64,000 nt of DNA, taken from positions 1-64,000 of the forward strand of contig JABDGM010000003.1 of NCBI GenBank assembly GCA_013286045.1, in the 5' to 3' direction. Position 1 is the stretch's first letter, and every line of letters begins with the position of its first letter. Below the pieces are notes generated by a model, which was given only the letters and a program-made list of their open reading frames with translations, did not search any database and had not been told where the DNA came from. The stretch is from Planctomycetota bacterium. Its GTDB lineage: Bacteria; Planctomycetota; Planctomycetia; Pirellulales; Lacipirellulaceae. Below, in pieces: positions 23,656 through 53,706 of this stretch. Position numbers and translations under genes: made by a program.

Positions 23656-24621
23656 CTATTCCGGGCCGAGATGCCCGGTTGCTTCTATGCGATAGCCGCG
23701 GCTGAAATCCTGGGCAGACATGGAGCGCTTGCCGGCGGGTTGGAGGTCGAGGATTTCCAACGGGACGTCGGCGGTGGCGATCAGAAGTTGGTCCTTTGAT
23801 TCGAGGATGGAGCCTGGGGCACCTGGTCGCTGAAGCGACCAGGCCGACGGGGAAATGGAGGCGGTGGGGGGTAATGTTACGCGGTCGATGTTTAGGCGTA
23901 AGGGGACGGCGTTGGGACGGTGGAGGAAGGTGTAGGCGCGGGGCCAGGGGCGTAGCGCGCGGACCTGGTTTTTTATTTCTTGCGCGGGGCGGGTCCAGTC
24001 GATGGCGCCTTGTTCTTTTTTTAGGCGCGGAGCTTTCGAGGCGAGGCTTTTGTCTTGAGGGATGGGGTGCTCGCGGTTGTGATCCAGATCCTCGATGACT
24101 TGGAGGACGGCTTCGGCGCCGAGTTTCGAGAGGCGAGTCTCGAGTTGGGCGGCGTCTTCGTCGGGGTCGATTGGGGTGCGTTGTTGGGCGAGGCATGGGC
24201 CGGCGTCTAGGCCGGGGGTCATTTGGATGACGCTGTTGCCGGTTTCGGTTTCGCCGCGGAGGATTGCCGTTTGAACGGGGGCTGCGCCACGGAATTTGGG
24301 GAGCAGCGAGCCGTGGAGGTTGATGCCGCCGAGACGGGTGGTGGCGAGGGTTTCTGGTTTTAGGATTTCGCCGTAGTCGCAGACTACTAGGAGGTCGGCG
24401 GCAAGGGATGTGAGGCGCGCTTGGGGGTCGGGGGCGTTGACTGTGTCGGGAGTCCAGAGCGGGAGGCTGAGTTGTTCGCCGGCCCGCTGAAGCGGGCTCG
24501 CCTGCGGGGTGCGACCTGTGGGGGGACGTGAGACAACCAGCGCGATTTCGTGGGGGGATGCGGAGAGGGCTTCGAGTGTGGGGACTGCGAAGGGGCCGGT
24601 GCCTAGCATGATTACGCGCAT
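23656..24621 (-). CDS. fmt: methionyl-tRNA formyltransferase
   Basis: 'LGGINLHGSLLPKFRGAAPVQTAILRGETETGNSVIQMTPGLDAGPCL', C-terminal 'LEILDLQPAGKRSMSAQDFSRG'. Confidence 0.95.
   Translation of the reverse strand: MRVIMLGTGPFAVPTLEALSASPHEIALVVSRPPTGRTPQASPLQRAGEQLSLPLWTPDTVNAPDPQARLTSLAADLLVVCDYGEILKPETLATTRLGGINLHGSLLPKFRGAAPVQTAILRGETETGNSVIQMTPGLDAGPCLAQQRTPIDPDEDAAQLETRLSKLGAEAVLQVIEDLDHNREHPIPQDKSLASKAPRLKKEQGAIDWTRPAQEIKNQVRALRPWPRAYTFLHRPNAVPLRLNIDRVTLPPTASISPSAWSLQRPGAPGSILESKDQLLIATADVPLEILDLQPAGKRSMSAQDFSRGYRIEATGHLGPE
23822..23843. repeat. palindrome family A, copy 2, inside fmt (CCTGGTCGCT-GA-AGCGACCAGG)
   Basis: Read on the minus strand in the fmt frame it encodes WSLQRP. Confidence 0.9.
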
Positions 24622-24630
24622 AACGACTCG

Positions 24631-25218
24631 CTAAGTCCGCAGCTGTTCTAGTTCGCGGAGGCGCTTTGCCATGTCGTCGGCGTTGGGGAGTTCGCCGGTT
24701 TCTAGTTTGCTTTGGAACGCGAATTCGAACTCTTCGAGTTGATCGCGGAGGTCGAGGGCTTGGGCGGGGCCGAGGCGATCGATGAAGAGCGTGCCATCGA
24801 GATGGTCGGTTTCGTGTTGGACGATGCGGGCCATGAAGTCGGTCACTTCGCCGGAGATTTCGTTGCCGTCGAGATCGTAGGCTTGGATCTTAATCGAGGT
24901 GTTGCGCGTGACGGGGGCGCGGAGGCCGGGGATGCTGAGGCAGCCTTCTTCGTCTTCGGCGAGGCCGCGGCCGGCGCTGAGGACGGGATTGATGAAGACG
25001 CCCTCGGATTCTCTCGCGTCGGGGTTGCCTTCGGGGTTAGCGATGAAGAGGCGGTAGGGCAAGTCGACCTGGTTGGCGGCGAGACCGACGCCTTCGTGTT
25101 CGTACATGAGGTCGAACATTTCTTCGACGAGCTTGCGCAGCTCGGCATCGACGCGGCGGAGGGGCTTCGAGCGGTGGCGAAGCGTCGGGTGGGGGTATTG
25201 GATGATTTGGAGAGGCAA
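24631..25218 (-). CDS. def: peptide deformylase
   Basis: Motifs GVGLAANQV, EEGCLSIPG, QHETDHLDG. Confidence 0.96.
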   Translation of the reverse strand: MPLQIIQYPHPTLRHRSKPLRRVDAELRKLVEEMFDLMYEHEGVGLAANQVDLPYRLFIANPEGNPDARESEGVFINPVLSAGRGLAEDEEGCLSIPGLRAPVTRNTSIKIQAYDLDGNEISGEVTDFMARIVQHETDHLDGTLFIDRLGPAQALDLRDQLEEFEFAFQSKLETGELPNADDMAKRLRELEQLRT

Positions 25219-25401
25219 GGGAGTGGCCGGTTGTGGGTCGAGTCGTGAGGAAGTGCTGGCACGAGGGAATGGAATTATAAGTGGGGAAACGTGCGGGGCG
25301 AAGCGTAAAACCGCAGGCGAAATGCTCGCGTTGACCGCGATTTGTGGGGGCGCTAGAATCGCGCGGTTTTTGGGGGCGAAAATGCAGGAAGTATAGCGCC
25401 G

Positions 25402-26337
25402 ATGCGGCGATTCTTATTCTCGGCGTGGGGTGTTTCGCTATTGCTGCATCTGGCTGCGCTCGCGGCGCTGGGCGTTTCGATGCAGACGTGGCCGCGCGGG
25501 GCGGGCGACGGTAGCTCGCACTCGATGGGGATTGTGCTCAATCATTCGGGCGATGAGGGGGAGCTGCGCAATGGTGATAACGGGGATGGCGAGCATCTGA
25601 GAAAGCTGGAGGCGCTGCAAGCGCCGGAGCTGTTGGCTCCGCCCGTGCCGGAGTTGCCCACGCCTGAGGTGAGTGGCGGTGCAGCGCAGAGTGCGGCGGC
25701 CGCGGAAGTAGTACAAGCTAGCGCGACTCAAGCGACGAATGCGCGGCCGGCATCGTCGGGGCATGGGCGCAATGGTACACAGGGCGCGACGGGCGAAGCG
25801 AAGGTCACGGTGTTCGGGGTCGAAGGGCGCGGGAAGAAGTTTTTGTATTTGTTCGACCGGTCGGCAAGTATGGAAGGCGCGCCGCTTTCGGCAGCGAAGC
25901 GGCAACTGGTGCAGAGCATGCAATCGCTCGGCAACGGGCAGCAGTTTCACATCATCTTTTTCAACACCAAGACGCAATCGTTTTCAGGAGATGACGGACC
26001 GAATCGGAATGTGCTTGCGACAGATCGCAATAAGCAGTTGGCTGCGAATTTTGTCGGCGGGATTACGGCCGACGGCGGGACGGATCGGATGGTGGCGCTC
26101 GAGGAAGCGCTGAAGTGTCAGCCAGATGTCATCTTCTTTCTGACAGATGCGGATGATCCGCTCTCGGTACAAGAGTTGATGGAGATCTCGCAGTGGAATC
26201 GCCGGCTGCATGCGGCCATTTGTGCAATTGAGTTTGGGGACGAGCCCAGACCGATGGAAGATAATTTTTTGATGCGGATGGCGCGCGAGAGTGGGGGGCA
26301 GTATGGGTATGTAGATACGGAGACGCTGCGGCGGTGA
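25402..26337 (+). CDS. membrane-anchored von Willebrand factor A domain protein
   Basis: N-terminal TM; MIDAS-like 'FLYLFDRSASMEGAPL', 'ADGGTDRMVALEEAL', 'VIFFLTDADDP'. Confidence 0.8.
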   Translation: MRRFLFSAWGVSLLLHLAALAALGVSMQTWPRGAGDGSSHSMGIVLNHSGDEGELRNGDNGDGEHLRKLEALQAPELLAPPVPELPTPEVSGGAAQSAAAAEVVQASATQATNARPASSGHGRNGTQGATGEAKVTVFGVEGRGKKFLYLFDRSASMEGAPLSAAKRQLVQSMQSLGNGQQFHIIFFNTKTQSFSGDDGPNRNVLATDRNKQLAANFVGGITADGGTDRMVALEEALKCQPDVIFFLTDADDPLSVQELMEISQWNRRLHAAICAIEFGDEPRPMEDNFLMRMARESGGQYGYVDTETLRR

Positions 26338-26367
26338 TGTCAGACTTATTGATAAGGAATACATCAA

Positions 26368-27432
26368 GTGGCAATGACTGGTTATTACAGCCAAATTACT
26401 GTGAATCGCATCTTCATCTGTGCGCTCGTGGCAGTTGCTGTGTGCACTTCTCATGGCAAATGCGAGGCAAACACGGACGGCGAATCAGACTCGTTGTCGG
26501 CACGTGCAGAAAAGGCCTTTGAGCACGAAGAGTATGAAACGGCGATTTCTCTTTTAACGGAAGCCCTTAAGGGTAAGCCCAACCCAGAGTTTTTGTGCGA
26601 ACGGGCGGCGGCAAAATCCGAACTGCGCGATTACGCAGGAGCTATAAGAGATTGCGATGATGCCCTTAAGTTACACCCTAATGAACATGCTCTTATTATG
26701 GCCTATCTGTGTCGGGCTCAATGTTTTGTTGCAACTAACGATCACAATCACGCAATATCGGATTGCACACTAGCGCTTGATATAGACGCCAAATGCATGG
26801 AAGCCTGGATAATTAGAGCGGGCGTATGGTACCAACTCGAAAATGCCAAATTGGCAATTGTGGATATAAATCATTGCATAGATCTAGATCCAACTCGTCC
26901 GGAAGCTTATGGATTTCGAAGTGCGTGTCACCAAACACTAGGCGATTGGACAAATGCGGTCGCTGACGCTGACAAAGCGGTTCAACTCGATGACAAAAAC
27001 TCGAACTGTTACATGTTTCGTGGTAGCGCGCATGCCGGTAACTTGGAGTTTGATAAGTCGCTTGCAGACTTCGATAAGGCGCTCAGTTTAGATCCAGGTA
27101 ATGACGCAGCAGTTGCTGCGCAGTGCGTGATCTTAGCGACGTGCCCAAAGCCGGACCTGCGTGACACGACTAGGGCATTGCAATTGGCACAAAGGCTCTG
27201 CGAACAAAAAGGGATGACTGACTGCAACCGTCTGTCACTTCTCGCAAGCGTTTACGCCGAAACAGGTGATTTCAAAAACGCTGTTGAATGGCAAGAACAA
27301 GCCATCAAGGCTGCAACTGCAGATCAAAAAAATGTGGCGAGCGAGCGTCTGAAGCGATTTCAAAGCGGGCGCACCGCGTTAGGCGATGGAAACACGTACC
27401 TCGGTCTGACAACCTTAAAGAGTTGGCGATAG
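26368..27432 (+). CDS. secreted tetratricopeptide repeat protein
   Basis: Signal peptide; repeated TPR-like 34-aa units (AISLLTEALKGKPNPEFLCERAAAKSELRDYAGAIRDCDDALKLHPN...). Confidence 0.8.
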   Translation: MAMTGYYSQITVNRIFICALVAVAVCTSHGKCEANTDGESDSLSARAEKAFEHEEYETAISLLTEALKGKPNPEFLCERAAAKSELRDYAGAIRDCDDALKLHPNEHALIMAYLCRAQCFVATNDHNHAISDCTLALDIDAKCMEAWIIRAGVWYQLENAKLAIVDINHCIDLDPTRPEAYGFRSACHQTLGDWTNAVADADKAVQLDDKNSNCYMFRGSAHAGNLEFDKSLADFDKALSLDPGNDAAVAAQCVILATCPKPDLRDTTRALQLAQRLCEQKGMTDCNRLSLLASVYAETGDFKNAVEWQEQAIKAATADQKNVASERLKRFQSGRTALGDGNTYLGLTTLKSWR

Positions 27433-27503
27433 TTTACCGCGTTACCGAGTCATTGATTCGAGGTCCAGTAGTTCGAATCGCCTAAGTGTTGATGTGGGGA
27501 AAC

Positions 27504-27529
27504 GAAAAACCCCCGGCTTTCGACGGGGG
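27504..27529 (-). terminator. intrinsic terminator for the 27572-27970 gene
   Basis: On the minus strand CCCCCG-tcgaaagc-CGGGGG followed by TTTTTCG. Confidence 0.6.
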
Positions 27530-27571
27530 CAATGCGAGGGGATCGCAAGGTGTGATTTTGCTGCGCGAGAC

Positions 27572-27970
27572 TTACCACGGCGCGCGGACGGGGTAGACGC
27601 CGAACTCGACTGTGTCGCTAGGCCAGAGCGGGGTCGGGCGGTAGGGGCCGCCGAAGGGGCCGTTGCCTGGGTAGTTGCGCTGGTACTGGTGGTCGATGCG
27701 CGAGATGCGCGAGCTAGCTACGCCCCAGCCCCAGTTGGTTTGAAGCTGGGCTGTCGGCGGGACGACTAGCGCCGTGGGGGCGCCGTAGTTGGTGTAGGCG
27801 TAGTTGCGGTTCCAGTTGTAGTAGCGGGCGCGGTAAGTCGGCGTCATGTAGCCGACATCGCAAACGGTGGGCGTCCAACAATCTAAGGCGGATGCGATGG
27901 GTGCCGTGGCGGTGAGGCCGCCGCCGGCGATGATCGCGGCGATGATCGGTAGGGTGAGACGGCGTAGCAT
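27572..27970 (-). CDS. secreted Tyr/Asn/Pro-rich hypothetical protein
   Basis: Signal peptide MLRRLTLPIIAAIIAGGGLTATAPIASA; aromatic-rich mature region. Confidence 0.6.
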   Translation of the reverse strand: MLRRLTLPIIAAIIAGGGLTATAPIASALDCWTPTVCDVGYMTPTYRARYYNWNRNYAYTNYGAPTALVVPPTAQLQTNWGWGVASSRISRIDHQYQRNYPGNGPFGGPYRPTPLWPSDTVEFGVYPVRAPW

Positions 27971-28058
27971 GGGGTGTCTCCGGTTTAGCTAAACCGCAAG
28001 CGGTAGGGTGAGTGAGCGGTGAACTTGGCGGGAAGTGTGTGGCGGGAGGCGCTCGTTG

Positions 28059-28532
28059 TTACCAACGGAGGCCGGGATAGTAGAAGTCGTTGTGGAGGCC
28101 CCAGATGTTGTTGGACATTGGGAACTTCATATCCATGATGCAGTCTTCGAGTCGAAGGCCGCAGGTACCGTAGCGGACGTTGGTGCGTCGCCAGCCGGCG
28201 CCGGGGTTGTAGGTGTAGTACGAGCGTTCATGCTTGTACATGAATTCGTGCGGCATGAAGGGTTGGTAGGTGACCCACGTTTGGCCACCGAGCGGCGGCA
28301 CTGGGCGGGGGCAAAGGTACATGCCGGCGGCGGCGCCGTTGTACGGGCCCGGTTGAGCGTAGTAGTTGTAGAACAGGTCTTTTTGTTGCTGGTAGCTAAT
28401 GTGTCGTTTGCCATCCCAGCCGGGTTGCTGGTACGGTTCGTACAACCATTGGGCTGAGGACTTTGACGCAGCGAACGAGACGAGGGTGAGCGCCAGAACG
28501 GCGAGGCTGATTTTGAATGCCGTAAACCGCAT
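28059..28532 (-). CDS. secreted Tyr-rich hypothetical protein
   Basis: Signal peptide MRFTAFKISLAVLALTLVSFAASKSSAQ; start 28532 chosen over the track start 28658. Confidence 0.6.
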   Translation of the reverse strand: MRFTAFKISLAVLALTLVSFAASKSSAQWLYEPYQQPGWDGKRHISYQQQKDLFYNYYAQPGPYNGAAAGMYLCPRPVPPLGGQTWVTYQPFMPHEFMYKHERSYYTYNPGAGWRRTNVRYGTCGLRLEDCIMDMKFPMSNNIWGLHNDFYYPGLRW

Positions 28533-28864
28533 CGGATTACCTCCAACGGACGAGTGTGCCTCTCGCGGGACGAGAAGTTTGCGGCCCAGCGGGACGGGCA
28601 GCGACACTGAATTGATTTGTAGGCGGCAGGCGAGTTGGGTCGTGACCGCCGGTGGCAAGGTCTATGAATGGTGTCGGCCAGGACCGGAGGAAGGGGTGAA
28701 TCTTTGTGTAGCGGATATTCGCGATGCATGTATTGTGGGGGCCGCAGCGTGGCAAAATGTGTCTTCGTTGAGGGCTTTTCCGCGGGTATAATCGGCACGA
28801 TCGTCACAGATTAACATCAGCGATATGGCGGCCGCGTTCGCGCGAGGTCGCAGGGAGATGTGGG

Positions 28865-31135
28865 TTGGCAGTTAAGCAAACGAAGAAACCGACGAAGCGG
28901 GAAACCTCGGTAACGAATAACGGTAAAGCGGGCGGCAAGAAGGGGACGCGGCGGCCGGGCCGCGCACCTGCGCCGAGCGCGAACGGCGACGAAGAGGGTG
29001 CGGAAGAAGAAGAGCTGGAGGAGGAAGACGACGCTGAGGAAGTTGAAGCCGAGGCAAACGGTAAGGCGGAATCGCGTGCGACGCCGAGGCGACGGGCCAC
29101 GGCCCAGTCGATGGCGGCGAAGCAGCGCGATATCAGCGTTAGCGAATTCTTTGCCAAGAATCGGCATCTGCTAGGCTTCGATAATCCGCGGAAGGCGCTG
29201 CTGACGACGGTGAAAGAGGCCGTCGATAACTCGCTCGATGCTTGTGAAGAAGCGGGGATTCTGCCGGAGATTTGGGTTCATATCGAAGCGATTGGCGCGG
29301 ACCACTACAAGGTTGGGATTCAGGACAATGGACCCGGCATTGTTAAAAAGCAGATTCCACTCATCTTCGGCAAGCTGCTGTATGGGTCGAAGTTTCATCG
29401 ACTGCGGCAGAGCCGCGGGCAGCAAGGTATCGGCATTAGCGCAGCCGGTATGTACGGCGTGCAAACGACTGGCAAGCCGGTGAAGATCGTTTCGAAGATT
29501 GACGCCAAGAAGCCGGCGCACTACTTCGAAATTCAGATCGATACGAAGCGGAACGAAGCGAAGATTCTCAACGGCAAAGGGGAAGGCGAAGATATTCCGC
29601 CCGGCGAAAAGGGGAAGGCTTACCGCGAGAAGCATGGCATCGAGTGGGTAGATGAGCCGCACGGCACGCGGGTGACGATTGAACTGCAGGCGAAGTTCAC
29701 TCGCGGGCGCGGCAGTGTGGATGAGTATTTGATGCAGACGGCGATTGCGAATCCGCACATCGCCCTGCACTATCGCGACCCGGATAGCGCGGATCCGGCG
29801 AAGGATAGCTTCTTCTTTCAGCGTTCGGCAGCAAAGCTTCCGCCGGAACCGAAAGAAATTTTGCCGCATCCGTACGGCGTGGAGTTAGGACGATTGGCGG
29901 CGCTGCTGACGGAGGCTGAGGGCGTTTCGATCACGCAGTTTTTAACGAACAATTTTTCGCGGGTGTCGTCGGGCATTGCGCGGCGAATTTGCCAAACTGC
30001 GAAAATTTCGCCGCGTGGGTGGGCGAAGAAAATGGGGCGTGTGGAAGCGGAGGCGTTGTTTCACGCCATCCAGGGAACGAAGATTCCCCCGCCGGCGACG
30101 GATTGTATTTGCCCAATTGGTGAGGACTTGATTCTCAAGGGGCTGCATCAAGTCGTGCCGGGCGAGTTTTACTCGGCGGCGACGCGACCGCCGGCCGTTT
30201 ATCGTGGGAACCCGTTTGTGATTGAAGTGGGATTGGCGTACGGTGGTGCGGCGGCGACGCAGAATGTAACTAAAGACTTGCTGTTGGATTTGCTGGAAGA
30301 AACGGATGCTCGCACGGTGCGGCAGTTTCTTATCAGCACGTTCAATGGGCTGGGTTCGGACGCTGCGGATCGAATTCTCAAGGCGGCGGACCTGGGCACG
30401 CGGCAAACGCCCAAAATGCTGAAGCCGAAGGAACGCGAGCGGCTGCTCAACGCAATGCAGAGCGTAAACGTTGCGGAAGGCCAGACGATGGAAGTCATGA
30501 GATATGCCAATCGCGTGCCGCTGCAATTCCAACAGGCGGCATGCGCGATTACGCAGACCGTGATGCAAACAAATTGGCGAAGTTATGGCTTGCAGCAATC
30601 GCGCGGCGGTTTGCCACGTGGACCGGTGAGCGTGATGGTACACATCGCGAGCGTGTGGGTGCCGTTTACGAGCGAATCGAAAGAAGCGATTGCCAGTTAT
30701 CCGGAGATTCAAAAGGAAATACGGCTCGGTTTGCAGACGGCGGGGCGCAAACTCGGCATGTACTTAAATCGTCGGCTTCGAGTGAAACAGCAAACGGATC
30801 GGCGTGAGATTTTCTTAAGGTATCTAAAGGAAGTATCGGGAGCGGTGAGCGAAATAAACGGCGCCGAGGCGAGCAGTTTGTACGAGGAGCTCGTGAAGGT
30901 AGCCAGGAAAGTGACTGCCGACGCGGACATGAAGATGGATGACCGCGGACGGAAGGTTTCACCAGAAGAGGCTGAGTTGGCGAAAGACGCGTCGGTGTTG
31001 ATCGTCGACCCGCTGCATGCGGCGGCGGCGCTCAACCGGGCGACGACGACTGTCGAAGAAGCGCCGCCTGTAGAAGCATCGGAGCCGGCGAAAGAAAAAT
31101 CTCGCAAAGGCGCGAAGACGCAAAAAACTAAATAA
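28865..31135 (+). CDS. top6B: DNA topoisomerase VI subunit B
   Basis: GHKL ATPase motifs '[16 protein letters not shown]', '[10 protein letters not shown]', '[18 protein letters not shown]'; TTG start; Lys/Glu-rich N-terminal extension. Confidence 0.93.
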
Positions 31136-31189
31136 GAAACTGAGCCGCTGTGTTTTGGGCCGCACCTATTGAAGAACTGAAAGAATTGC

Positions 31190-32347
31190 ATGGCCAAGAA
31201 GAAGACTGAAGATTCCGCCGCAAAGAAATCCGCCCCGGTGAAGCTTTCGGCTCGCGACAAGAAGACGAACGAATCGCTCGTTGGGCTCGCGGATCGCGTG
31301 GTTAGCGCTGCCAAGAATCGGAAAGATCCTTACGTAGAGATTCCCTCGCGCACGCTGGCGAACGTGCACTATTCGCCACGTAAGAAGATCCTCGAGATGG
31401 GGAATGCGAAGAACCGACGGCAGCTGTTTGATCTTTCGCAGGCGAAGGCTTACATGCGGACGATGCTCGTAGCGAGCGGGTGTAAGAAGCTGATCATGCA
31501 AGGCAAGTCGACGAGCCTCCGGGGTTTGTTCTACATGCTCAAGCACACGATCGAAGGCGCCAAAGAGAACACTTTCGATGATCAGGATGAGTGCGACACG
31601 ATCATTGAAGATACTGAAGTGTTGCTCGATGCGATCCGCGAAGAGCTACATCTCTACGCAGAGAATCGCGGTGCGATGGTCGGGAACATCACTTTTACGG
31701 ACAAGGGCGATGAAATCAACTGCGCGCGGATGGGCTCGGGCGGGTATGCGATCCCATCGATATGCGAACCTGAAGTGATTCAATTCGACGCGAGTAAGTG
31801 CAAGGCCAAGTTTATTCTGCATGTTGAAAAAGGCACGGTTTGGCAGCGGTTCAATGAGGATCGCTTTTGGGAGACGCACAACTGCATCCTTACGCACGGC
31901 AGTGGGCAGCCGCCGCGTGGCGTTCGGCGGATGCTGTTCCGACTGCACAATGAATTGAAGTTGCCGCTGTACTGCGTGCTCGATAACGATCCGTGGGGAT
32001 ACTACATCTATAGCGTCATCAAGCAGGGCTCGATTAATCTGGCGTTTGAATCGCAGCGGATGGCGATTCCCGAGGCGAAGTATCTTGGTCTGCGAAGCAT
32101 TGATTTAGAGCGGTGCGATCTTGCAGACAGCGTGAAAATCACGCTGAATGATACCGATCGCAAGCGGGCGAAGCAGGTGGCGGCCTACCCGTGGTTCGCG
32201 AAGAAACGCGAGTGGCAACGGGAGATCGAGAAGATGATCAAGAACGACTTCAAGCTGGAAGTCGAATCTTTGATTTCGAAGGGGCTGAGCTTTGTTACGG
32301 AAGAGTATGTGCCGGCTCGGTTGGCGAATCAGGATTGGTTGGACTGA
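31190..32347 (+). CDS. top6A: DNA topoisomerase VI subunit A (Spo11-like)
   Basis: 'STSLRGLFYMLKHT' catalytic-Tyr region and Toprim 'LPLYCVLDNDPWGYYIYSVIKQGSINLAFESQRMAIPEAKYLGL'. Confidence 0.93.
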   Translation: MAKKKTEDSAAKKSAPVKLSARDKKTNESLVGLADRVVSAAKNRKDPYVEIPSRTLANVHYSPRKKILEMGNAKNRRQLFDLSQAKAYMRTMLVASGCKKLIMQGKSTSLRGLFYMLKHTIEGAKENTFDDQDECDTIIEDTEVLLDAIREELHLYAENRGAMVGNITFTDKGDEINCARMGSGGYAIPSICEPEVIQFDASKCKAKFILHVEKGTVWQRFNEDRFWETHNCILTHGSGQPPRGVRRMLFRLHNELKLPLYCVLDNDPWGYYIYSVIKQGSINLAFESQRMAIPEAKYLGLRSIDLERCDLADSVKITLNDTDRKRAKQVAAYPWFAKKREWQREIEKMIKNDFKLEVESLISKGLSFVTEEYVPARLANQDWLD

Positions 32348-34479: not shown

Positions 34480-34594
34480 TTCGCGCCGCCAGAAATTGGC
34501 GGAGCGGAATTGCCGCTCTAGTAAAAACAGTTATAACAGGAGCGCGTGGGCTCCCGTGGGAACCGCTCTTGCGGCTCCCGCTGGCAACGGGATT

Positions 34595-34646: not shown

Positions 34647-34663
34647 TGTTAAGTTACTATTGA

Positions 34664-43660: not shown

Positions 43661-46012
43661 CTACTGGTTTAGTGTGTAGAGCAGTACGTTGAGGCCGATG
43701 CGGGCGGCGTCTTGCTGAATGTAGCCGCGGCAACCGACAGCCTCATGGCTTTCCAGGGCGCAGCTAATGTCGTAAGGCGAGAAGATTACGGCCCAGCGGT
43801 GATCAAGCTGAATGCCTTCGATTTCGGGCGTCACCTGTCGAATGCGAGCCGCGACGGGTTGATTGTCGCCGTTGGCGGCGGCGGGGTCGCGGAGCGAGAC
43901 GTTGCGGATATCGTAACCGCCAAAGGCATTCGTAAAGATCGGATCGGTCGCTGGAATTCGTTCGAAAGCGTGTCCCGGAAGTGCTGCTGAAATTTCGCGG
44001 CGCAAGGCCGTGGCGAACGGCTTGCTGGCACAGATCGAATCGGCGAGCACGGTTCCGCCGCGTTCAAGGTATTCCTTGAGGTGCGTGCGCTCGGCGTCGG
44101 TGAGGTGGAAATCGTACCGGCCGTGCATAAAGGCAAGGTGATATCGAAACAGGCTGGGATCGGAGATGTTGATCAGATCGGGGGCAGCACGAACTTGGAG
44201 CTTCAACTCGCCTTGCGACGCGGTGCGGAGCAGATTGAGTAGCGCGCCGGGCGCATCGTTGCAGCCGCCGCCGTGTCGGAGCTTCGCGATTTCGATGACG
44301 CCGCGGGAAGTTTTGTCGTTGACAGCGTCGGCGGCGAGCGGCGTCTCGAAGCTCTGCTCTTTGCCTTTGGGTTCACGGTTAGTGGCGTACGTGAGCACAT
44401 TGACTCCGATCGCGAGGGCATCGGTGATGTGCTGGACGACGTCGGCCGGGTAGTGGCTCCATTGGCCGGGGCGAGCTAGTTCCCAGAAGCACGACAGATC
44501 TTGATCGCAGTAGACGACGCACGTGCGGCAGCCGTACTCGACGCCGTAGAGGTGCCCGACGTAGGGCGAGTCGGGTCGCACCATATCTTGCATGCGCCAC
44601 ACCGGATGGCCGGGCGGTATAGGTTGCAATTTGTATTCGGGCTCGGGGAAGACGGCCGTGAGCAGTTGACGCATGCCGGAATCGAATCGGCTCGAATCTT
44701 TACAGCAGGCCTCGGCGAAGATGAATCCACCGCGGTCGACGTAGTCGCGCAACTTCTGAGCTTGGGGCAGCAGATTGGGCGCTTGGCTGCCGCTGATGTA
44801 GAGAACCGGCGCTTGCAGCAAGTCTTCGACGCTGGCTTTCGTCGGATCCATGACTTGCCAGGTAAGACCGAGATTCCAAGCGTCTTCGGTGTATTCGGTG
44901 AGATGGGCGGCGTCGCGGCGGTGTTGATTCCAGATGTCGTTGTCACCGTACTTGAGTTTCGCCATGACGATCGGGCGGCGCCCCTTTGATAAGAACAGCA
45001 GCGCCATCGGCGTGCTGATCCACTCCTTAGTTTCGGCGTACCAGGAGCCTTTCCAAAAATGAGAGAGTGAATCCTGTTCGCGGATGAGAAGTTCGGCGCC
45101 CTCGCGGTACCAATCGTGCTCGCCAATGAATCGGCGACCGGTGAGGCGGCCGGCGCGCTCCAGACCGTAGAGATAGTAGTAGAGGCAGGCTTGCCCACCG
45201 CCGGCGGGGCGCGGGTTGTGGTTCACGGAGAAATGCGTCGCTAGCCAATCGACGGCGCGGTCGAGTTTGTCATCGACTTCGTGAGGGCGGCAGCAAACGA
45301 CTTTACCGTCCTCGACAGACGCGTCGCCCGATTCGAGCGCGGCGGTGGAGACGGCGAGTCCGCCGATGCCGGCGCATGTCATGCTGCCCGTGCCGGAGTC
45401 GCCGGGGACGTAACCCCAAGAGCCGTCGTCGTTTTGCGTGGAGCGCCAATAGTTGGCAGCGAGCGTCCAAGTGTCGCGGCTGACGTCGACCCCTGCGTGT
45501 TGGGCATCGTAGAGCGCGAGCACGGCGAATTGCGAATTGCTGTTATCGCCGCCGGGGCCGGGATAGGACCAAGCGCCTTTGCGTTGACCTTCTTTAATTT
45601 GGTGCTCTTCTAGCCACTTCACGTTGCGGCGGATGATGAGCAGGTCCTTTTTGGGATCGGCAGCGCAGAGGACCATCGTCTGTAGTGAAATCGTGTACGT
45701 TTTATCGAGATCCAGGCTGCGAAGATGGTCAACCGCTTTGCTAACGACGGGGTCGTCGGCCGGCACGCCGGAATTAATCAGGGCGAGGGTGCAGAGCGCG
45801 GTGACGCCGCCGTCGTAACCGGGGAGTTCATTCCAGGATCCGCGAGGTCCTTGCTGGCGTTTGAGATAGGCGATGCCGTGATCAATCGCGGACATCACTT
45901 GGGTCGCGTCGATTGGCTGTTCGGCTGGCTTTTGAGCCAAGGCTTCGGCCGGCGATACAACTGCTACGATCGGCAAGATCGCAACACAAAATAGCGCGGC
46001 AGGGAGCCTCAT
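43661..46012 (-). CDS. DUF4159 domain protein with N-terminal prenyltransferase/squalene-oxidase-like repeats
   Basis: 'AIDHGIAYLKRQQGPRGSWNELPGYDGGVTALCTLALINSG', 'WLATHFSVNHNP', C-terminal DUF4159-like 'YHLAFMHGRYDFHLTDAERTHLKEYLERGGTVLADSICASKPF'. Confidence 0.8.
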   Translation of the reverse strand: MRLPAALFCVAILPIVAVVSPAEALAQKPAEQPIDATQVMSAIDHGIAYLKRQQGPRGSWNELPGYDGGVTALCTLALINSGVPADDPVVSKAVDHLRSLDLDKTYTISLQTMVLCAADPKKDLLIIRRNVKWLEEHQIKEGQRKGAWSYPGPGGDNSNSQFAVLALYDAQHAGVDVSRDTWTLAANYWRSTQNDDGSWGYVPGDSGTGSMTCAGIGGLAVSTAALESGDASVEDGKVVCCRPHEVDDKLDRAVDWLATHFSVNHNPRPAGGGQACLYYYLYGLERAGRLTGRRFIGEHDWYREGAELLIREQDSLSHFWKGSWYAETKEWISTPMALLFLSKGRRPIVMAKLKYGDNDIWNQHRRDAAHLTEYTEDAWNLGLTWQVMDPTKASVEDLLQAPVLYISGSQAPNLLPQAQKLRDYVDRGGFIFAEACCKDSSRFDSGMRQLLTAVFPEPEYKLQPIPPGHPVWRMQDMVRPDSPYVGHLYGVEYGCRTCVVYCDQDLSCFWELARPGQWSHYPADVVQHITDALAIGVNVLTYATNREPKGKEQSFETPLAADAVNDKTSRGVIEIAKLRHGGGCNDAPGALLNLLRTASQGELKLQVRAAPDLINISDPSLFRYHLAFMHGRYDFHLTDAERTHLKEYLERGGTVLADSICASKPFATALRREISAALPGHAFERIPATDPIFTNAFGGYDIRNVSLRDPAAANGDNQPVAARIRQVTPEIEGIQLDHRWAVIFSPYDISCALESHEAVGCRGYIQQDAARIGLNVLLYTLNQ

Positions 46013-46144
46013 CCGATATCCTTCGCGGGCGAGCCAGCAAACTGTCTGTAAGTAGTTTACGATTCAGAGGTTGAGGCGGCAACGCTCGGCGGCACCGAGT
46101 GATTGTCGCTTGTGTATGGCACCTATAGAATGCGAGTGGACTCA

Positions 46145-46236
46145 CTGTCCGTTGTCCGTGGTCAGTGATCCGTCAGCTCGAAATAGCCGCGACTGGTGAA
46201 TTGCGACGGACGTCTGACAACGGACCACGGACGAAT
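46145..46236. repeat. imperfect inverted repeat built of CCGTTGTC/CCGTGGTC words, upstream of moxR
   Basis: ctgtccgttgtccgtggtcagtgatccgtc ... gacggacgtctgacaacggaccacggacga. Confidence 0.6.
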
Positions 46237-46239
46237 TTC

Positions 46240-47286
46240 ATGGCCACAACGACACCGCCGACGCCGCAAGCCGGCAAGACGCGTAATTTGGGCGACGTCT
46301 TGCAGGAGTTTCGCAATCATCGCGTCATCATGCAGCGCGAGCTGCAGAAGGTGATCATTGGTCAGGACCTCGTGATCGAGCAGATTTTCGCGGCGATTTT
46401 TACGCGCGGGCATTGTCTGCTCGTCGGTGTGCCGGGGCTCGCGAAAACGTTGATCGTGAGCACGCTTGCGCAGATTCTAGATCTGCAGTTCAAGCGGATT
46501 CAGTTCACGCCGGATCTCATGCCGAGCGACATCACGGGCACGAGCGTGCTGGAAGAGGACGATCAAGGGCGGCGGAATTTTCGATTTGTCGAAGGGCCGA
46601 TATTTACGAACATTCTTCTCGCGGACGAAATCAACCGTACGCCGCCGAAGACGCAGGCCGCACTTCTGCAGGCGATGCAAGAGCGCGAAGTGACGGCGGG
46701 GCAATCGACCTACTCGTTGCCGAATCCGTTTTTCACCATCGCGACGCAGAACCCGATCGAACAAGAAGGCACGTACCCGCTGCCGGAAGCACAATTGGAT
46801 CGGTTCATGTTCAATATCAAGGTTGATTATCCGAGCGCGTCGGAAGAGGAGCAGATTCTCGCAGCAACGACGCGGCAGGAAAAACCAGAAGTTAGCAAAG
46901 TGCTTTCGGAGCGCGCGATTCTCAATTTGCAGAAGCTGGTCGCTTCGGTGGCGGTGAGTGAGCACATCATAAAGTACGCTGCGGCGCTGATTCGAGCGAC
47001 GCGGCCGAAGGATGTGTCGGCGCCGAAGTTCGTCCAGGACCTGGTTGATTGGGGTGCGGGTCCGCGGGCCGGGCAGTTTCTTATCAACGGCGGGAAGGCG
47101 CTCGCGGCGATGGACGGGCGGTTCAGCGTCTCGATTGATGACGTGCAGAAAGTTGCTGTGCCAGTGTTGCGGCATCGGATCAGCACGAACTTTCAAGCGC
47201 AAGCGGAAGGCATGACAACCGAAGATGTGATTGCGCGGTTGCTCAAAGAGATTCCTGTGCCGGCGATTCCGAAGTTTGCGGGCTGA
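46240..47286 (+). CDS. MoxR family AAA+ ATPase
   Basis: Walker A 'LLVGVPGLAKT', 'ILLADEINRTPPKTQAALLQAMQEREVT', 'FFTIATQNPIEQEGTYPLPEAQLDRFMF'; start at 46240. Confidence 0.94.
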   Translation: MATTTPPTPQAGKTRNLGDVLQEFRNHRVIMQRELQKVIIGQDLVIEQIFAAIFTRGHCLLVGVPGLAKTLIVSTLAQILDLQFKRIQFTPDLMPSDITGTSVLEEDDQGRRNFRFVEGPIFTNILLADEINRTPPKTQAALLQAMQEREVTAGQSTYSLPNPFFTIATQNPIEQEGTYPLPEAQLDRFMFNIKVDYPSASEEEQILAATTRQEKPEVSKVLSERAILNLQKLVASVAVSEHIIKYAAALIRATRPKDVSAPKFVQDLVDWGAGPRAGQFLINGGKALAAMDGRFSVSIDDVQKVAVPVLRHRISTNFQAQAEGMTTEDVIARLLKEIPVPAIPKFAG

Positions 47287-47298
47287 CAAGACAATTGT

Positions 47299-47365
47299 TG
47301 ACCACGGAGGCACGGAGAACACGGAGAAGGAATTCTTAATCTCTATGTTCTCCGTGCCTCGTTTC
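47299..47365. repeat. CACGGAG-type inverted repeat between moxR and DUF58 gene
   Basis: ttgaccacggaggcacggagaacacggagaa ... ttctccgtgcctcg. Confidence 0.75.
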
Positions 47366-47380
47366 TAAATAGTGCGCGCT

Positions 47381-48277
47381 ATGTCGACCGTAGAGAAATA
47401 CCTTAAGCCGGAAGTGATTCGGCAGATTTCGCGGTTGGACTTGCGCGCGCAGTTCATCGTGCGCGGGTTTCTGCATGGTTTACATGCGAGCCCGTTTCAC
47501 GGGTTTTCGGTCGAGTTCAGCGAACATCGCAGGTATACACCCGGCGACAACCCGCACGATATCGATTGGCTGGTCTACGCCAAGACGGACAAGTATTACG
47601 TCAAAAAGTTTGAAGCCGAGACGAACATCACCGGCTACTTGGCGATGGATTTGAGCGAGTCGATGGCGTACACGTATCGCCAGGAGCTGACGAAGCTCGA
47701 TTACGCGATTTGCTTGGCGGCCGCACTTTCCTATTTGATGATCCACCAGAGCGATCCCGTCGGGGTGGTGACGTTTGGAGAGAGCATTACGCACCACCTC
47801 GCGCCGAAGAGCAAGCGGCAACAGATTGGAAATATTCTGTCGCTACTTGCGCGAATAAAACCAAGTGGGACGACGGACGTGGGGCGGAGCCTCGTACAGC
47901 TGGCGGCGATGCTGAAGCATGCCAGCCTGATTATGGTCTTCAGCGATTTGCTGGCCGATCCGGAGCCGATCATCACGGCGATGCGACGGCTGCGGCACGG
48001 CGGGCACGACGTGATTTTGTTCCATATTCTGGACGAGGCGGAGGTCGCATTTCCGTTTTCCGGTATGGTTGAGTTCGAAGAGCCGGAGACTCATACACGG
48101 CTGGAGGTAGATGCCGACAGTTATCGACGCGACTACCTGCAAGAGATTGAGCAGTTCCGCGAAACTTATCGCCGCGAATGCTTTCAGAGCGGGATCGATT
48201 ACGTGCCGCTGGATACGAGCATGCCGTTTGATCGGGCGCTGACGGAGTATTTGGTGATGCGGCAGTCGCGAGGATAA
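47381..48277 (+). CDS. DUF58 domain protein
   Basis: 'GFLHGLHASPFHGFSVEFSEHRRYTPGDNPHDIDWLVYAKTDKYYVKKFEAETN'. Confidence 0.92.
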   Translation: MSTVEKYLKPEVIRQISRLDLRAQFIVRGFLHGLHASPFHGFSVEFSEHRRYTPGDNPHDIDWLVYAKTDKYYVKKFEAETNITGYLAMDLSESMAYTYRQELTKLDYAICLAAALSYLMIHQSDPVGVVTFGESITHHLAPKSKRQQIGNILSLLARIKPSGTTDVGRSLVQLAAMLKHASLIMVFSDLLADPEPIITAMRRLRHGGHDVILFHILDEAEVAFPFSGMVEFEEPETHTRLEVDADSYRRDYLQEIEQFRETYRRECFQSGIDYVPLDTSMPFDRALTEYLVMRQSRG

Positions 48278-48283
48278 AGGCAG

Positions 48284-48436
48284 ATTAACCACGGAGACAC
48301 GGAAATCACGGAGAAACATGAAATGGGAATTGCAAAAATGAGTGATGCGAAGTGCTCACTGCAGGTTCTGCATTTTGAATCTCGCTTTTTGCGTGCTTAA
48401 TTTCCTCTCCGTGCCCTCCGTGCCTCCGTGGTTAAT
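48284..48436. repeat. 153-bp MITE-like element with 13-bp perfect terminal inverted repeats (ATTAACCACGGAG/CTCCGTGGTTAAT)
   Basis: Termini at 48284-48296 and 48424-48436; internal CACGGAG words. Confidence 0.75.
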
Positions 48437-48456
48437 TGTTCCGGGATGTTTTTGAG

Positions 48457-50652
48457 ATGGGTTTTGTCACACCAGCATTGATCGGCGGCGCGGCGCTCGT
48501 GGCGTTGCCGATCGTGCTGCATCTCATCATGCGGCGGGAGACGAAGCTGCTTACGTTTCCGGCGCTGCGGTTTGTGCAACAACGGCGGTTGATGAATCAG
48601 CATCGGCTGCGGTTGCGGCAGTTGCTGCTCTTGGCGTTGCGATGCGCGATCATTGCTTTGCTTGCGCTGGCCTTGGCACGCCCGACGTTGCGCGGCTCAG
48701 CCGGAGCGGGCAAGGAAGGCGCGGCGGTCGCGACGGCCCTCGTATTCGATAATTCGCTGCGGATGCAGTACGAGCAGGAAAGCCAGACACGCTGGCAGAA
48801 AGCTAAGGAGCTGGCGGGGTGGGTGGTGAAGCAATTGCCCGCTGATGCGCCGATCACGGTAGTCGATCGCGGTGGAAGGCAGCGTGGGCAGGATTTGAAC
48901 CGCGACGCGGCGGAGATGCGAATTGAGCGGCTGGAGCCTAGTGCCGCCGTCCGACCGATGGAGGACACGCTGCGAGATGCGACGCGATGGCTGGCGAGCA
49001 AAAAAGACTTTCGCGGTGAAGTCTATGTGTTTACGGATCTCTCGGCCGAGGCTTGGTCTGCTACTGCCGTGAGCGAATTTACAAAATCGCTCGACTCGTT
49101 GCCTGGCGCGAACGTGTACTTGATAGACGTTGGAGTGCTCGACCCGCAGGAGCGGGGGTTGGGGCCGCTGCGTCTTTCGAGCCAGCGGGTGGCGACGACG
49201 GGCAAGCTGCAACTCACTGCCGATCTAACGCGAACGGGTGCTGCGAGCAAGGAACCGGAAACGACCGTGGAACTGTATTTGAGCGATCGCGCCAATAAGT
49301 TCGAGAAGCGCGGTCAGGAGGTGGTGTCGAACAGTGCAGAATCAGCCCCCGTTGAGTTTTCGCTTTCGGGGTTGGAGCCGGGACCACATCAGGGGTTTGT
49401 GCGGATCGTGGGGAGTGATCCGCTGAGCTGCGACGACACGCGGTACTTCACGATCGATGTTCGCCCGCCGAGCAAAGTTTTGCTGCTGGGTGAGAAAGCG
49501 GATGACACGATCTTTCTGCGCGAAGCGCTAGCTCCGACGGCGGCAGCGGGAAGCGCGCAGTCGGAATTCTCATGCGAGGTGCGGACGTATTCCGACATGG
49601 GGCGGCTGAAGTTGGCGGACTATTCGGCGGTATTTTTGGTGAATCCGCCGCCGCTCGCGAAAACTGCGTGGGACGCGCTGGCCGAATTCGCGGAAGCGGG
49701 CGGCGGCGTGGGAATTTCGCTGGGTCGCAATGCGCGGCGCGAAGAGATGGACGGCGCCGACGCCCAGCGATTGCTGCCGGCGAAGTTGAAATGGCAATCG
49801 CACGATACCACATACTTGCGACCGGTTGCAGTCGAACATCCAGCGCTGCGCGACTTGGCCTCGGTTACGGACAGCGCGCCGTGGTCGGAGTTTCCGGTGT
49901 TCAAATACTGGGAACTCGAGCCCGGGGCAGAGCCGGCCGAAGTCATCTCCACGTTTGCCAATGGCAAACCAGCGATTGTTGAGCGGCAAATTGGTTCGGG
50001 CCGCGTGGTGATGTTCACGACGTCGATGTCCGACTACGCTTCGGCGGATGCTTGGAATTTGTTGCCGACGGCACCAGATCCTTGGCCATTCATCGCATTG
50101 GCGAACGGCATCGCACGCTATCTAACCGGAGCGGGTCAGGCGCAATTGAATTATTTAGCAGGCCAAACGGTCGTGTTGCCGCTGACACCGGACGAGCAGG
50201 TTTCTAGTTACGTGCTGCAGCTCCCAGATGCGAGTGCGATGCGGCAAACGCTGGCGGCGGGGCAACACGATCTATCGATCGCTTCGACCGAGGAGTTGGG
50301 GAATTATCGAGTTCGTGCGGGCGGCGACCAGGAAAAGCTGGATCGCGGCTTTAGCGTGAATTTGCCGACGGATGAGACTCAATTGGGGCGGGTCGCGGTA
50401 CCTGAGCTCGTTAAAAGCTTGGGAAGCGAACGTACGAGGACGGCGAGAACGCGTGAAGAAATCGAAGTGCGGGTCGGAGTTGGCCGAGTGGGTCACGAGC
50501 TTTTCCCGGCATTGATTCTCGCCGTGGCGTTAGCGTTGGCGGCGGAACAGTTGCTTGCTAATCGGTTCTACGAATCGGTAGGGGCGACAGGGCGAACGGA
50601 GCCCAAGACGGCTGCGAACCTCGTGGGAGGCGCGCCGTCGACTTCGCCATGA
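48457..50652 (+). CDS. BatA-domain / VWA-like membrane protein
   Basis: 'PALIGGAALVALPIVLHLIMRRETKLLTFPALRFVQ...LRQLLLLALRCAIIALLALALARP' BatA N-terminus; ATG 48457 chosen over TTG 48436, which lies at the repeat boundary. Confidence 0.85.
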   Translation: MGFVTPALIGGAALVALPIVLHLIMRRETKLLTFPALRFVQQRRLMNQHRLRLRQLLLLALRCAIIALLALALARPTLRGSAGAGKEGAAVATALVFDNSLRMQYEQESQTRWQKAKELAGWVVKQLPADAPITVVDRGGRQRGQDLNRDAAEMRIERLEPSAAVRPMEDTLRDATRWLASKKDFRGEVYVFTDLSAEAWSATAVSEFTKSLDSLPGANVYLIDVGVLDPQERGLGPLRLSSQRVATTGKLQLTADLTRTGAASKEPETTVELYLSDRANKFEKRGQEVVSNSAESAPVEFSLSGLEPGPHQGFVRIVGSDPLSCDDTRYFTIDVRPPSKVLLLGEKADDTIFLREALAPTAAAGSAQSEFSCEVRTYSDMGRLKLADYSAVFLVNPPPLAKTAWDALAEFAEAGGGVGISLGRNARREEMDGADAQRLLPAKLKWQSHDTTYLRPVAVEHPALRDLASVTDSAPWSEFPVFKYWELEPGAEPAEVISTFANGKPAIVERQIGSGRVVMFTTSMSDYASADAWNLLPTAPDPWPFIALANGIARYLTGAGQAQLNYLAGQTVVLPLTPDEQVSSYVLQLPDASAMRQTLAAGQHDLSIASTEELGNYRVRAGGDQEKLDRGFSVNLPTDETQLGRVAVPELVKSLGSERTRTARTREEIEVRVGVGRVGHELFPALILAVALALAAEQLLANRFYESVGATGRTEPKTAANLVGGAPSTSP

Positions 50653-52985
50653 ACGGATTCGAAATACGCCTGCAGCCAGTGGTTGGCTGGCCGACCGTGC
50701 TCATTGTGACGGCGGTGCTGCTTGGGCTTCTGTTGGTGCGGCCGCGGCATGTTCGATTGATCAAGCGGCAATGGGCTGCGCTCATCGCCTTGCGGCTACT
50801 GGTCATTCTCTTGATGTTTTTCGCCCTGCTGCGACCGTCATTCGTGTACACGAAAACGGAACCGGTGCCGGGATCGCTGATTCTGCTTGTCGATGGTTCG
50901 CGCAGCATGCAGGTGGCCGACTCGCTTGGCGATAAGCCGCGTTGGGATGCGATGAAGCTGCTGCTGGATGCGGCATCGAAGGACCTGGGAAAATTGGCGG
51001 CCAAATGGAATGTTACGGCCTATGAGTTTGGCGGCGAAACCAAGAAGGTCGATTTACAGGATGGGAAGCTGACGCTGGCCGCGAGTGCCGATGGCGAAGA
51101 GTCGGCAATTGGCGCAGCGATCGGCGATGCGCTCGATCGAGAGCCGAGCAAACACGTGATGGGCGTGCTGCTGTTGAGCGATGGGGCGCAGCGTGCGGCG
51201 CCGCCTCGCGATATGCCGCCGCAGGTGGCGGCGCGCCGCTTAACGGCGGAGAACATTCCGCTGTATACGTTCACGTTCGGTAAATCAGGCGGGCGCGAGC
51301 GGGCCGATCTGAGCATGAGTGACCTGGTGACGAACGAAACCATCTTCACGGAAACTCCGACGGAAGTCCGTGCTCGGCTCACTGCGTTAGGCTACGCCAA
51401 TCAGCGCGTGAAAGTGCAGCTGTTGTGGGAAACCGCAAAAGGAATGGAGGCAGTCGATACGACCCAGGTTGATACCGGGATTGAAGGCGGGGCCACGCCT
51501 GTGGTCCTGCACTACACCCCGCAGAAGCCGGGCGAATATAAGGTGACGGTCCGCGTTGAGCCGCGAGAAGGGGAACTCATCACAACAAATAATGAAGTCA
51601 GCACGTTTGTTACTGTACGTCCGGGCGGAATCAATGTGTTGTATCTAGTTGGTACGCAGCGTGTGAGCGGCGGACCGGGACAGGAACAACGGTTCGTGCG
51701 GGCATCGCTTGCGCAGTCGCCAGATATTGTCGTGGCGCGGCGGCTGGTTAATTACCAACCGATGGGGGCGGATATCACGGATTTAATTGGTCACGGAAAA
51801 GGTGGCGGACATTCGTCGACACCGGAACCCGATGTGACGATCGTTGACAATGTCGATGAACAGGGACTGAGCGAGGGAAGTTGGAAAGCGATCGCGGATC
51901 GCGTGCAGCACGGGATGGGCCTTCTCATGACGGGCGGCTACCACAGTTTTGGGCCGGGCGGTTACCGTGGCACGCCGCTCGCGGACGTGTTGCCAATCGA
52001 AATTGGGCCCGCTCAAAGGCAAGATTTTAACGAGCCGCTGCGGCAAGACGTGCAGATTGCGGGCCCGCTTCACATTCGGCCGGCAGCGCCGCTAGGCGAG
52101 CGGCATCCGGTGATGCAGTTGGAAGGTTCGGGAGCAGCCGGCCCGGGCGCAGCGAAGACAAATACCGGCAATGTATGGAACCAATTGCCGCCATTGGATG
52201 GCGCGAATCGGATCGAACGAAGCGAATTGAAACCGAACTCGCAGGTGCTCGCTGAGGCCGATGATCCGCAGAAGCACCCGCTAGTTGTCGCGGGTCAAGC
52301 TGGTGAAGGCCGGGTGTTGGCATTGGCAGGAGACTCCACGTGGCGTTGGCAGATGAGTGGATTCGGCGAGGCCCATCGGCGATTTTGGCGGCAAGTAGTG
52401 TTGTGGCTCGCAAAAAAGGACGAGCACACTGAGGGAAAAGTCTGGATCAAATTAGCGGGGCGTCGCGTGATGCGGGGCTCGCATGTGGAATTCAGTGTTG
52501 GCGCCGACAGTCCGCAAGGCGAGCCGATGCCGAACGCGCAGTTCGACATTTCTGTTCAAACGCCTGAGGGTCACAGCGAGGCGGTACGACCGGCTAAAAC
52601 CTCGGATGGCATTGCGGCCACGTTTCGCGAGACATCGAAACCGGGCGATTATCGGATTGTTGTGAAAGCAAAAGACGGTGGCACAGAATTGGGGACCGCG
52701 GAGGCTCGGTTCCTGGTGCCGAACCAGGATCTGGAACTCGATCGCCCGGCGGCAGAGCCGACGTTAATGGCTCAGTTGGCGGAAATGACGAAGCCGGCCG
52801 GCGGGGCCGCGATGGCCGCGGAGGAATTGCCGGATTTGCTAAAGCGGTTGGCGGCGAAGCCGCCGGAGTTGAAAGAAGAGGTGACGGCCAAAGTTACCTA
52901 TTGGGATACGTGGCCGTTTTTCCTGGCGTTTGTCGGATTGCTAGGCGGCGAGTGGTATTTGCGTAAGCGATGGGGAATGGTTTAG
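50649..52985 (+). CDS. VWA / glutamine-amidotransferase-like membrane protein
   Basis: TMs at both ends, 'LILLVDGSRSMQVADSLGD'; 4-bp overlap with previous CDS. Confidence 0.85.
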   Translation: MNGFEIRLQPVVGWPTVLIVTAVLLGLLLVRPRHVRLIKRQWAALIALRLLVILLMFFALLRPSFVYTKTEPVPGSLILLVDGSRSMQVADSLGDKPRWDAMKLLLDAASKDLGKLAAKWNVTAYEFGGETKKVDLQDGKLTLAASADGEESAIGAAIGDALDREPSKHVMGVLLLSDGAQRAAPPRDMPPQVAARRLTAENIPLYTFTFGKSGGRERADLSMSDLVTNETIFTETPTEVRARLTALGYANQRVKVQLLWETAKGMEAVDTTQVDTGIEGGATPVVLHYTPQKPGEYKVTVRVEPREGELITTNNEVSTFVTVRPGGINVLYLVGTQRVSGGPGQEQRFVRASLAQSPDIVVARRLVNYQPMGADITDLIGHGKGGGHSSTPEPDVTIVDNVDEQGLSEGSWKAIADRVQHGMGLLMTGGYHSFGPGGYRGTPLADVLPIEIGPAQRQDFNEPLRQDVQIAGPLHIRPAAPLGERHPVMQLEGSGAAGPGAAKTNTGNVWNQLPPLDGANRIERSELKPNSQVLAEADDPQKHPLVVAGQAGEGRVLALAGDSTWRWQMSGFGEAHRRFWRQVVLWLAKKDEHTEGKVWIKLAGRRVMRGSHVEFSVGADSPQGEPMPNAQFDISVQTPEGHSEAVRPAKTSDGIAATFRETSKPGDYRIVVKAKDGGTELGTAEARFLVPNQDLELDRPAAEPTLMAQLAEMTKPAGGAAMAAEELPDLLKRLAAKPPELKEEVTAKVTYWDTWPFFLAFVGLLGGEWYLRKRWGMV

Positions 52986-53007
52986 CCCGTCCTTCGGCCG
53001 AGATCTG

Positions 53008-53706
53008 CTAACGCTCCGATTTAGATGCGGTCCAGGTCCAATGGCGATCGGATGTCATGCGAAGTGATTCCCGATCGAATGCATAGCGTGCGACAAGATC
53101 GCTCATTTCTTTAACGGTCAGCGCCGCTTGGAGTGATTCCGTGAAAAGTCGGCGCTGATATTGGGTGGCATCTCCGGCGTACGTTGCGGCCAGCCGCCGA
53201 AGTGCGGGTTCATCGTGCGGGCGAGCGAGGTCGCGATGAAACAAGAGCCCGCCTGGCTTCGTAGTTCGCACGGCTTCTGCGATGACGGTTACGGGCTCGG
53301 GAATGTGGTGGAAGCTACTGTTGCTGATGACGACGTCAAAAGTGTCTAAATCGAACGGCAATTGCTTGGCATCTGCGAGGATCAGCGTGATGCAGTTTGC
53401 GACACCCGCCGCGGTGACGTTTTTTTCTGCGAGCATGAGCATGTTCTTGGCGGCGTCGACTGCAGTGATCCGCGCATTCTGGAAATGGCGGGCTAGTTCG
53501 ATGGCGATTTGCGCGGTGCCGGCGCCGAGGTCGAGAATTTGTAGCGGGGCGTGGGTGTTTACTGGTCGCTGAAGCGACCAGTCCGTCATGGCAGCGAGCA
53601 GGTCGGTGACGAAGATTTCGTTCACCGCCGTGTGGTCCATTGCGTCGTATTCAGCGGCGTCCTCGGCGGAGTCCATCACTTCGGGTTCGAGGATACGTTG
53701 GAGCAT
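53008..53706 (-). CDS. class I SAM-dependent methyltransferase
   Basis: 'ILDLGAGTAQIAIELARHFQNARITAVDAAKNML', 'FDVVISNSSFHHIP'. Confidence 0.88.
   Translation of the reverse strand: MLQRILEPEVMDSAEDAAEYDAMDHTAVNEIFVTDLLAAMTDWSLQRPVNTHAPLQILDLGAGTAQIAIELARHFQNARITAVDAAKNMLMLAEKNVTAAGVANCITLILADAKQLPFDLDTFDVVISNSSFHHIPEPVTVIAEAVRTTKPGGLLFHRDLARPHDEPALRRLAATYAGDATQYQRRLFTESLQAALTVKEMSDLVARYAFDRESLRMTSDRHWTWTASKSER
53561..53582. repeat. palindrome family A, copy 3, inside the methyltransferase gene
   Basis: ACTGGTCGCT-GA-AGCGACCAGT; minus-strand frame encodes DWSLQRPV. Confidence 0.9.

Follow-up and report, generated by a model that had tools for sequence, protein, structure and literature searches.

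A short palindrome that recurs in a 64-kb stretch of DNA from the planctomycete family Lacipirellulaceae (hereafter, the window) is very probably the REP of a REP-RAYT system, spread by its cognate RAYT (REP-associated tyrosine transposase) with some in-frame coding copies kept. The first-pass annotation of the window had inferred a mobile or spreading palindrome that tolerates coding insertion. We found that the element is dispersed, enriched and tolerated in frame, as proposed; its mobility and mechanism we infer by analogy with relatives.

Structure and distribution of the REP unit

The 20-mer CTGGTCGCTGAAGCGACCAG occurs exactly at positions 17624-17643, 23823-23842 and 53562-53581 of the window (+ strand), compared with an average of 0.01 matches in dinucleotide shuffles of the window. 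These are the three sites reported in the first-pass annotation, whose 22-nt coordinates are correct once the paired outermost base is counted in. The loop of the hairpin, given there as 2 nt, consists of four bases when folded (TTCA or TGAA). The copies and the genes containing two of them are listed below; both gene identities proposed earlier hold.

17623..17647, minus strand: REP copy 1, intergenic; the minus strand reads a CGG foot followed by A-CTGGTCGCTTCAGCGACCAG-T
23656..24621, minus strand: fmt (methionyl-tRNA formyltransferase; PF00551 and PF02911), with REP copy 2 at residues 261-266
23822..23846, minus strand: REP copy 2, in frame in fmt; CGG followed by C-CTGGTCGCTTCAGCGACCAG-G, encoding AWSLQRPG
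53008..53706, minus strand: SAM-dependent methyltransferase (PF08241 and others, Methyltransf_11/25), with REP copy 3 at residues 43-48, directly before motif I
53561..53585, minus strand: REP copy 3, in frame in the methyltransferase; CGG followed by A-CTGGTCGCTTCAGCGACCAG-T, encoding DWSLQRPV

To place these copies in a wider context, we counted the element by pattern searches in the genome to which the window belongs (G000; 4.38 Mb in 253 contigs, 59% complete). The searches identified nine exact matches to CTGGTCGCTNNAGCGACCAG and four more with one mismatch, giving 13 copies at up to one mismatch and 20 matches at up to three mismatches. The reversed pattern, used as a control, gave no exact match and two at up to three mismatches, so that the 20-mer is enriched genome-wide, as the earlier reading had anticipated.

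When the 13 near-exact copies were aligned on the TTCA strand, CGG was found directly 5′ of the stem in every one of them, and the outermost pair was complementary throughout but covarying (A-T in 10 copies and C-G in 3; A-T, C-G and A-T at window sites 1, 2 and 3, respectively). Because conservation mostly stops beyond the CGG and the paired outer base, the unit is polar and approximately 25 nt long, consisting of a 5′-CGG foot and a 22-nt hairpin, 5′-CGG-ACTGGTCGCTTCAGCGACCAGT-3′. The polarity that characterizes REPs, an unpaired foot conserved on one side only, was also evident among 109 copies, where the CGGA foot lies on the 5′ side in 21 of the 23 TTCA-loop copies and on the 3′ side in 4 of 23. 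Folded as single-stranded DNA, the REP unit reaches -10 to -11 kcal/mol, compared with about -2.4 to -4.2 kcal/mol for shuffled sequences.

Within the family, the 20-mer is present in 8 of 44 genomes at 4 to 43 copies each, including 29-43 copies in each of three Lacipirellula genomes, and has no copy of the exact type in the sister species G001 and G002. In a scan of 84,980 species genomes it was almost confined to planctomycete records, with single stray matches elsewhere; the carriers were Lacipirellula limnantheis I41 (a member of Lacipirellulaceae, Pirellulales), the 'Pirellula sp.' PB1.3.31 MAG, Bythopirellula polymerisocia Pla144 and several MAGs. Three copies occur in a MAG that bears the label Phycisphaeraceae (SJ399), possibly through transfer or because the bin is mislabelled. 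Outside the window's genome, in Lacipirellula and Bythopirellula, about 7 of 100 copies appear to be coding and about 93% non-coding, an approximate count from a scan with a simple codon model and short flanks, since fmt escaped detection when the flanks were 180 bases long. Three of these approximately seven coding copies represent one common site, in an NDH-2-like oxidoreductase of the three Lacipirellula genomes. The element is thus a short palindrome with many dispersed copies located chiefly between genes, as is typical of REPs.

The window also contains other repeats. A second dispersed palindrome, CTGCTGG(A/G)CAA(A)GCCAGCAG(T/C)GGCACC, occurs at 15718-15743 and 17721-17747, the latter approximately 75 bases from REP copy 1. 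A tandem array of a 57-nt unit at 16179-16621 (spacing 57, inner copies 94-96% alike) overlaps a minus-strand ORF of 159 aa. Two 33-nt hairpins followed by T-runs, at 60840-60872 and 62038-62070, are 97% identical, lie 1.2 kb apart and look like duplicated intrinsic terminators.

A cognate transposase in related genomes

In four relatives (G017, G028, G025 and G035), pairs of REP copies 0.6-0.7 kb apart bracket an ORF of approximately 200 aa with the motif DNHYHxLGYL, that is, a transposase gene between copies of its own repeat, as in REP-RAYT systems. The hosts of this gene are Lacipirellula and Bythopirellula, and guaA adjoins the flanked ORF in G017 and G035. The gene of G028 is located at C1:5235349-5235942. 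In some RAYT genes, the stop codon (TAA or TGA) comes from the loop of the downstream REP.

All six RAYTs tested matched NCBIfam NF047646 (REP-associated tyrosine transposase) with E~1e-18 but below the curated cut-off (67 bits for the first RAYT versus a cut-off of 80). The Pfam Y1_Tnp match was weak or marginal (best E 0.0017), so that Pfam on its own did not identify the transposase, and a sequence profile search against PDB chains returned only unrelated matches for it. The fold search did identify it: for an AlphaFold2 model (pLDDT 77.5), the best PDB match found by Foldseek was 4ER8 (E=1.7e-7), the E. coli RAYT with a REP hairpin bound, followed by the TnpA proteins of IS200/IS608/ISDra2. 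With a conserved NHYH motif, a conserved Y145 and a fold closest to 4ER8, the protein has the features of a Y1/HUH transposase.

The type of repeat corresponds to the type of transposase. Close to nine other RAYT loci lie palindromes of different sequence, with a similar tip that is usually CGCTNNAGCG; at one locus, a truncated gene in G449, none was seen. A tree, several forks of which are weak, places the RAYTs whose repeats are CGGA-CTGGTCGC apart from those next to repeats with a GGCGA foot: the A-clade RAYTs (G017a, G028, G025 and G035) pair with CTGGTCGC REPs, and most B-clade RAYTs adjoin GGCGA-footed REPs. Of the family genomes, the four that have an A-clade RAYT all contain the 20-mer, compared to 4 of the 40 others (Fisher p=5e-4). 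The suggestion made earlier that a RAYT should be looked for was thus borne out in relatives; in the window's own genome (59% complete, 253 contigs) no RAYT was found, and no A-clade RAYT was found in the three other 20-mer carriers, all of which are drafts.

Based on these relatives, the cognate Y1/HUH transposase probably recognizes the hairpin and the CGGA foot as single-stranded DNA and would copy or move REPs to new sites. Most copies would land or survive between genes, and a minority would be kept inside proteins where they are free of stops in the reading direction and lie in a tolerant linker. Transposition by an A-clade RAYT, a single-strand mechanism and neutrality of the inserted peptides are each what we infer for this element.

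In-frame copies and their sites in sister species

Four of the 13 copies in the window's genome lie in frame in proteins, namely Fmt, the methyltransferase, cysteinyl-tRNA synthetase (CysRS; PF01406, PF09190) and a GH57 glucanotransferase (PF03065, PF09095). The Fmt and methyltransferase copies both encode WSLQRP on the minus strand and share one reading frame (SAWSLQRPGAPG and TDWSLQRPVNTH), as the first-pass annotation had stated. Because the CysRS copy (LVASAT, in the context GLVASATS) and the GH57 copy (GRFSDQ, in the context TGRFSDQS) use the other two frames, this shared frame does not hold generally. Across the four copies, every frame of the TTCA strand is used, which led us to reject WSLQRP as a special peptide or frame. 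The TTCA strand is without a stop codon in any frame; the opposite strand has a TGA in one frame.

The possibility that WSLQRP is ancestral in these proteins was rejected as well. In alignments, it was absent from 29 other Fmt orthologues and 25 other methyltransferase homologues, and the element was absent from orthologues outside the genus; the proposal of an inserted element therefore survived the search for WSLQRP in distant orthologues, with the nuance that the methyltransferase of the congeneric G002 has a similar RSLQRP, encoded by the related palindrome CCGGCGAGGTCGCTGCAGCGACCGG at the same site. In a structural model of Fmt (mean pLDDT 92), WSLQRP falls in the loop that is modelled with the least confidence (pLDDT 66-73), between the C-terminal strands 241-249 and 271-274.

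Most orthologues have a GH57 linker of 19 residues, compared with 29 in the window's species, and this step is the cleanest evidence of insertion. Linkers of 40-47 residues without a recognizable REP in G011 (another genus) and G001 are possibly decayed insertions. Because linker length in Fmt, the methyltransferase and CysRS varies among relatives, with some REP-free Fmt linkers (46 residues) equalling the filled one in length, a clean length step is seen only at GH57; for the other three proteins, the evidence of insertion is the identity of the repeat and not a length step. Apart from the GH57 step, the flanks were too diverged for comparison with sister species to give insertion boundaries, and we found no strain pair with one filled and one empty site from which the target, a duplication or the exact inserted length could be derived.

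The same sites in sister species carry REPs of their own. The GH57 site of G002 holds the same REP in decayed form, CCGGACTGGCCGCTTGAGCGAACAGT, and that insertion is therefore older than the species split. An unrelated palindrome of the GTAG type is present three times in the Fmt linker of G002, as GTAGGGTGGGCACYGCCCACC and as its inverse (VGWAPPT...VGWALPT...GGQSPPY), and six such repeats occur within about 40 kb on the contig with fmt. Linkers open to one REP family are also open to others. At the CysRS site, REPs are of the GGCGA type, with different stems, in G001, G002 and G011 and of the CGGA type in the window's species; orientation and reading frame are the same, with the core codons Ala-Ser-Ala. 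The REP type at this position was either replaced or separately inserted. That it can be swapped in place at one fixed position within an essential gene is conceivable but rather doubtful; if true, existing REPs would be targets for, or converted by, the REP type active in a lineage, which would amount to concerted evolution of coding hairpins.

We also considered a REP-like 21-mer, GGCGAGCCCGCTTCAGCGGGC, in the N-terminal part of fmt (24482-24502, minus strand) as a second insertion, and rejected it because the alignment shows no indel. It is identical to the G002-type REP, encodes QASPLQRAGE in Fmt and is present in G002 too, and represents either chance or a replacement without insertion.

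Alternative explanations and relation to known systems

Chance similarity, that is, similar linkers in two proteins combined with an accidental hairpin, is so improbable that we reject it: we found nothing in its support, and the expectation of 0.01 matches in the window and of ~6e-5 for a given 18-position pattern in 4.4 Mb stands against nine exact copies and further copies in relatives. The hairpin might instead be a selected functional site (an RNA stability element, a terminator, or a protein-binding or recombination site) rather than a mobile repeat. Perfect stems, the covarying outer pair and sites common to three Lacipirellula species with the stem intact would fit such a role; because these shared-site loci were chosen for exact matches, however, their conservation is biased upward. 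Copies between genes and in any frame of unrelated proteins, the lack of the exact type in G001 and G002, the association of the 20-mer with RAYT presence and a hairpin without a T-run make this reading improbable.

A passive relic family deserves more weight, even if we lean against it. REPs would have spread in an ancestor, none would now be moving in the lineage, and the coding copies would be fossils that persist because their loss would break the frame. Such a history is consistent with the lack of a detected RAYT in G000, with the GH57 copy that is common to G002 but decayed there and thus predates the split, and with a coding share that is higher in the window's genome (4/13) than in Lacipirellula and Bythopirellula (7/100; Fisher p=0.02). 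On the other hand, nine copies retain perfect stems, against a divergence of about 25% in the orthologous DNA of the sister species, and a RAYT may be missed in a genome that is only 59% complete.

REPs, RAYTs and REPs inside genes are already known, and the element is a REP of a RAYT system rather than something unexplained. The statement in the first-pass annotation that no equivalent is known in planctomycetes does not hold: GTAG-tagged REPs have been reported in planctomycetes (PMC3733652), as has a planctomycete class of Y1 transposases (class 3) with CnGA-footed repeats (Quentin et al. 2018, PMC6006769). As in the REP-RAYT/REPtron systems of E. coli (TnpA-REP) and Pseudomonas (REPIN/RAYT; PMC2817692, PMC3116915), the hairpin is polar and carries its foot at the 5′ base, the repeats flank a Y1/HUH gene of low copy number, and repeat and transposase types correspond. 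In Lacipirellulaceae, however, the foot is CGG(A) and not GTAG, the catalytic motif of the RAYT is Y---Q with NHYH, and copies number 4-43 and not hundreds. The coding share of 4/13 in the window's genome compares with 14 of 1,067 16-mers overlapping genes in P. fluorescens SBW25 (PMC3116915).

TnpA-Y1 class 3 is found mainly in planctomycetes, acidobacteria and proteobacteria and has repeated flanking structures with a 5′ CnGA foot (PMC6006769). The CGGA of the A-clade RAYTs agrees with this foot, and the GGCGA of the B clade shows no clear fit. The published class 3 motifs are NHVH and YV[VI][AENY]EQ (Table 1, PMC6006769), whereas the Lacipirellulaceae RAYTs have NHYH and YTL[RT]Q and so depart from them.

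Intragenic GTAG and CGTC REPs occur in several species, most in Opitutus terrae (a PVC bacterium) and R. conorii; they are found inside genes of known function, where flexible linkers have been suggested as their possible location (Di Nocera et al. 2013, PMC3733652). The present element resembles them in its intragenic copies but differs in foot and stem, and we found neither the element nor its host lineage described there. Because its foot is CGGA or CGGC and not GTAG/GTGG or CGTC, the element falls outside the GTAG and CGTC super-families. Rickettsia palindromic elements are likewise palindromic repeats in frame in unrelated proteins; those analysed in PMC3733652 carry a CGTC tag and have no known dedicated transposase, whereas the Lacipirellulaceae element has a cognate RAYT in relatives. 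A literature search confined largely to freely accessible papers found no work on REPs in Lacipirellula.

The findings extend REP-RAYT systems to Lacipirellulaceae, where the foot is not GTAG and the motifs of the transposase clade match none of the subclasses tabulated in PMC6006769, and they provide clear cases of REPs within unrelated proteins, including an essential enzyme, CysRS. Related genomes that differ in their RAYTs, and in the REPs at common coding sites, offer a way to test the retargeting of existing REPs by RAYTs, and the system is present in two named strains, Lacipirellula limnantheis I41 and Bythopirellula polymerisocia Pla144.
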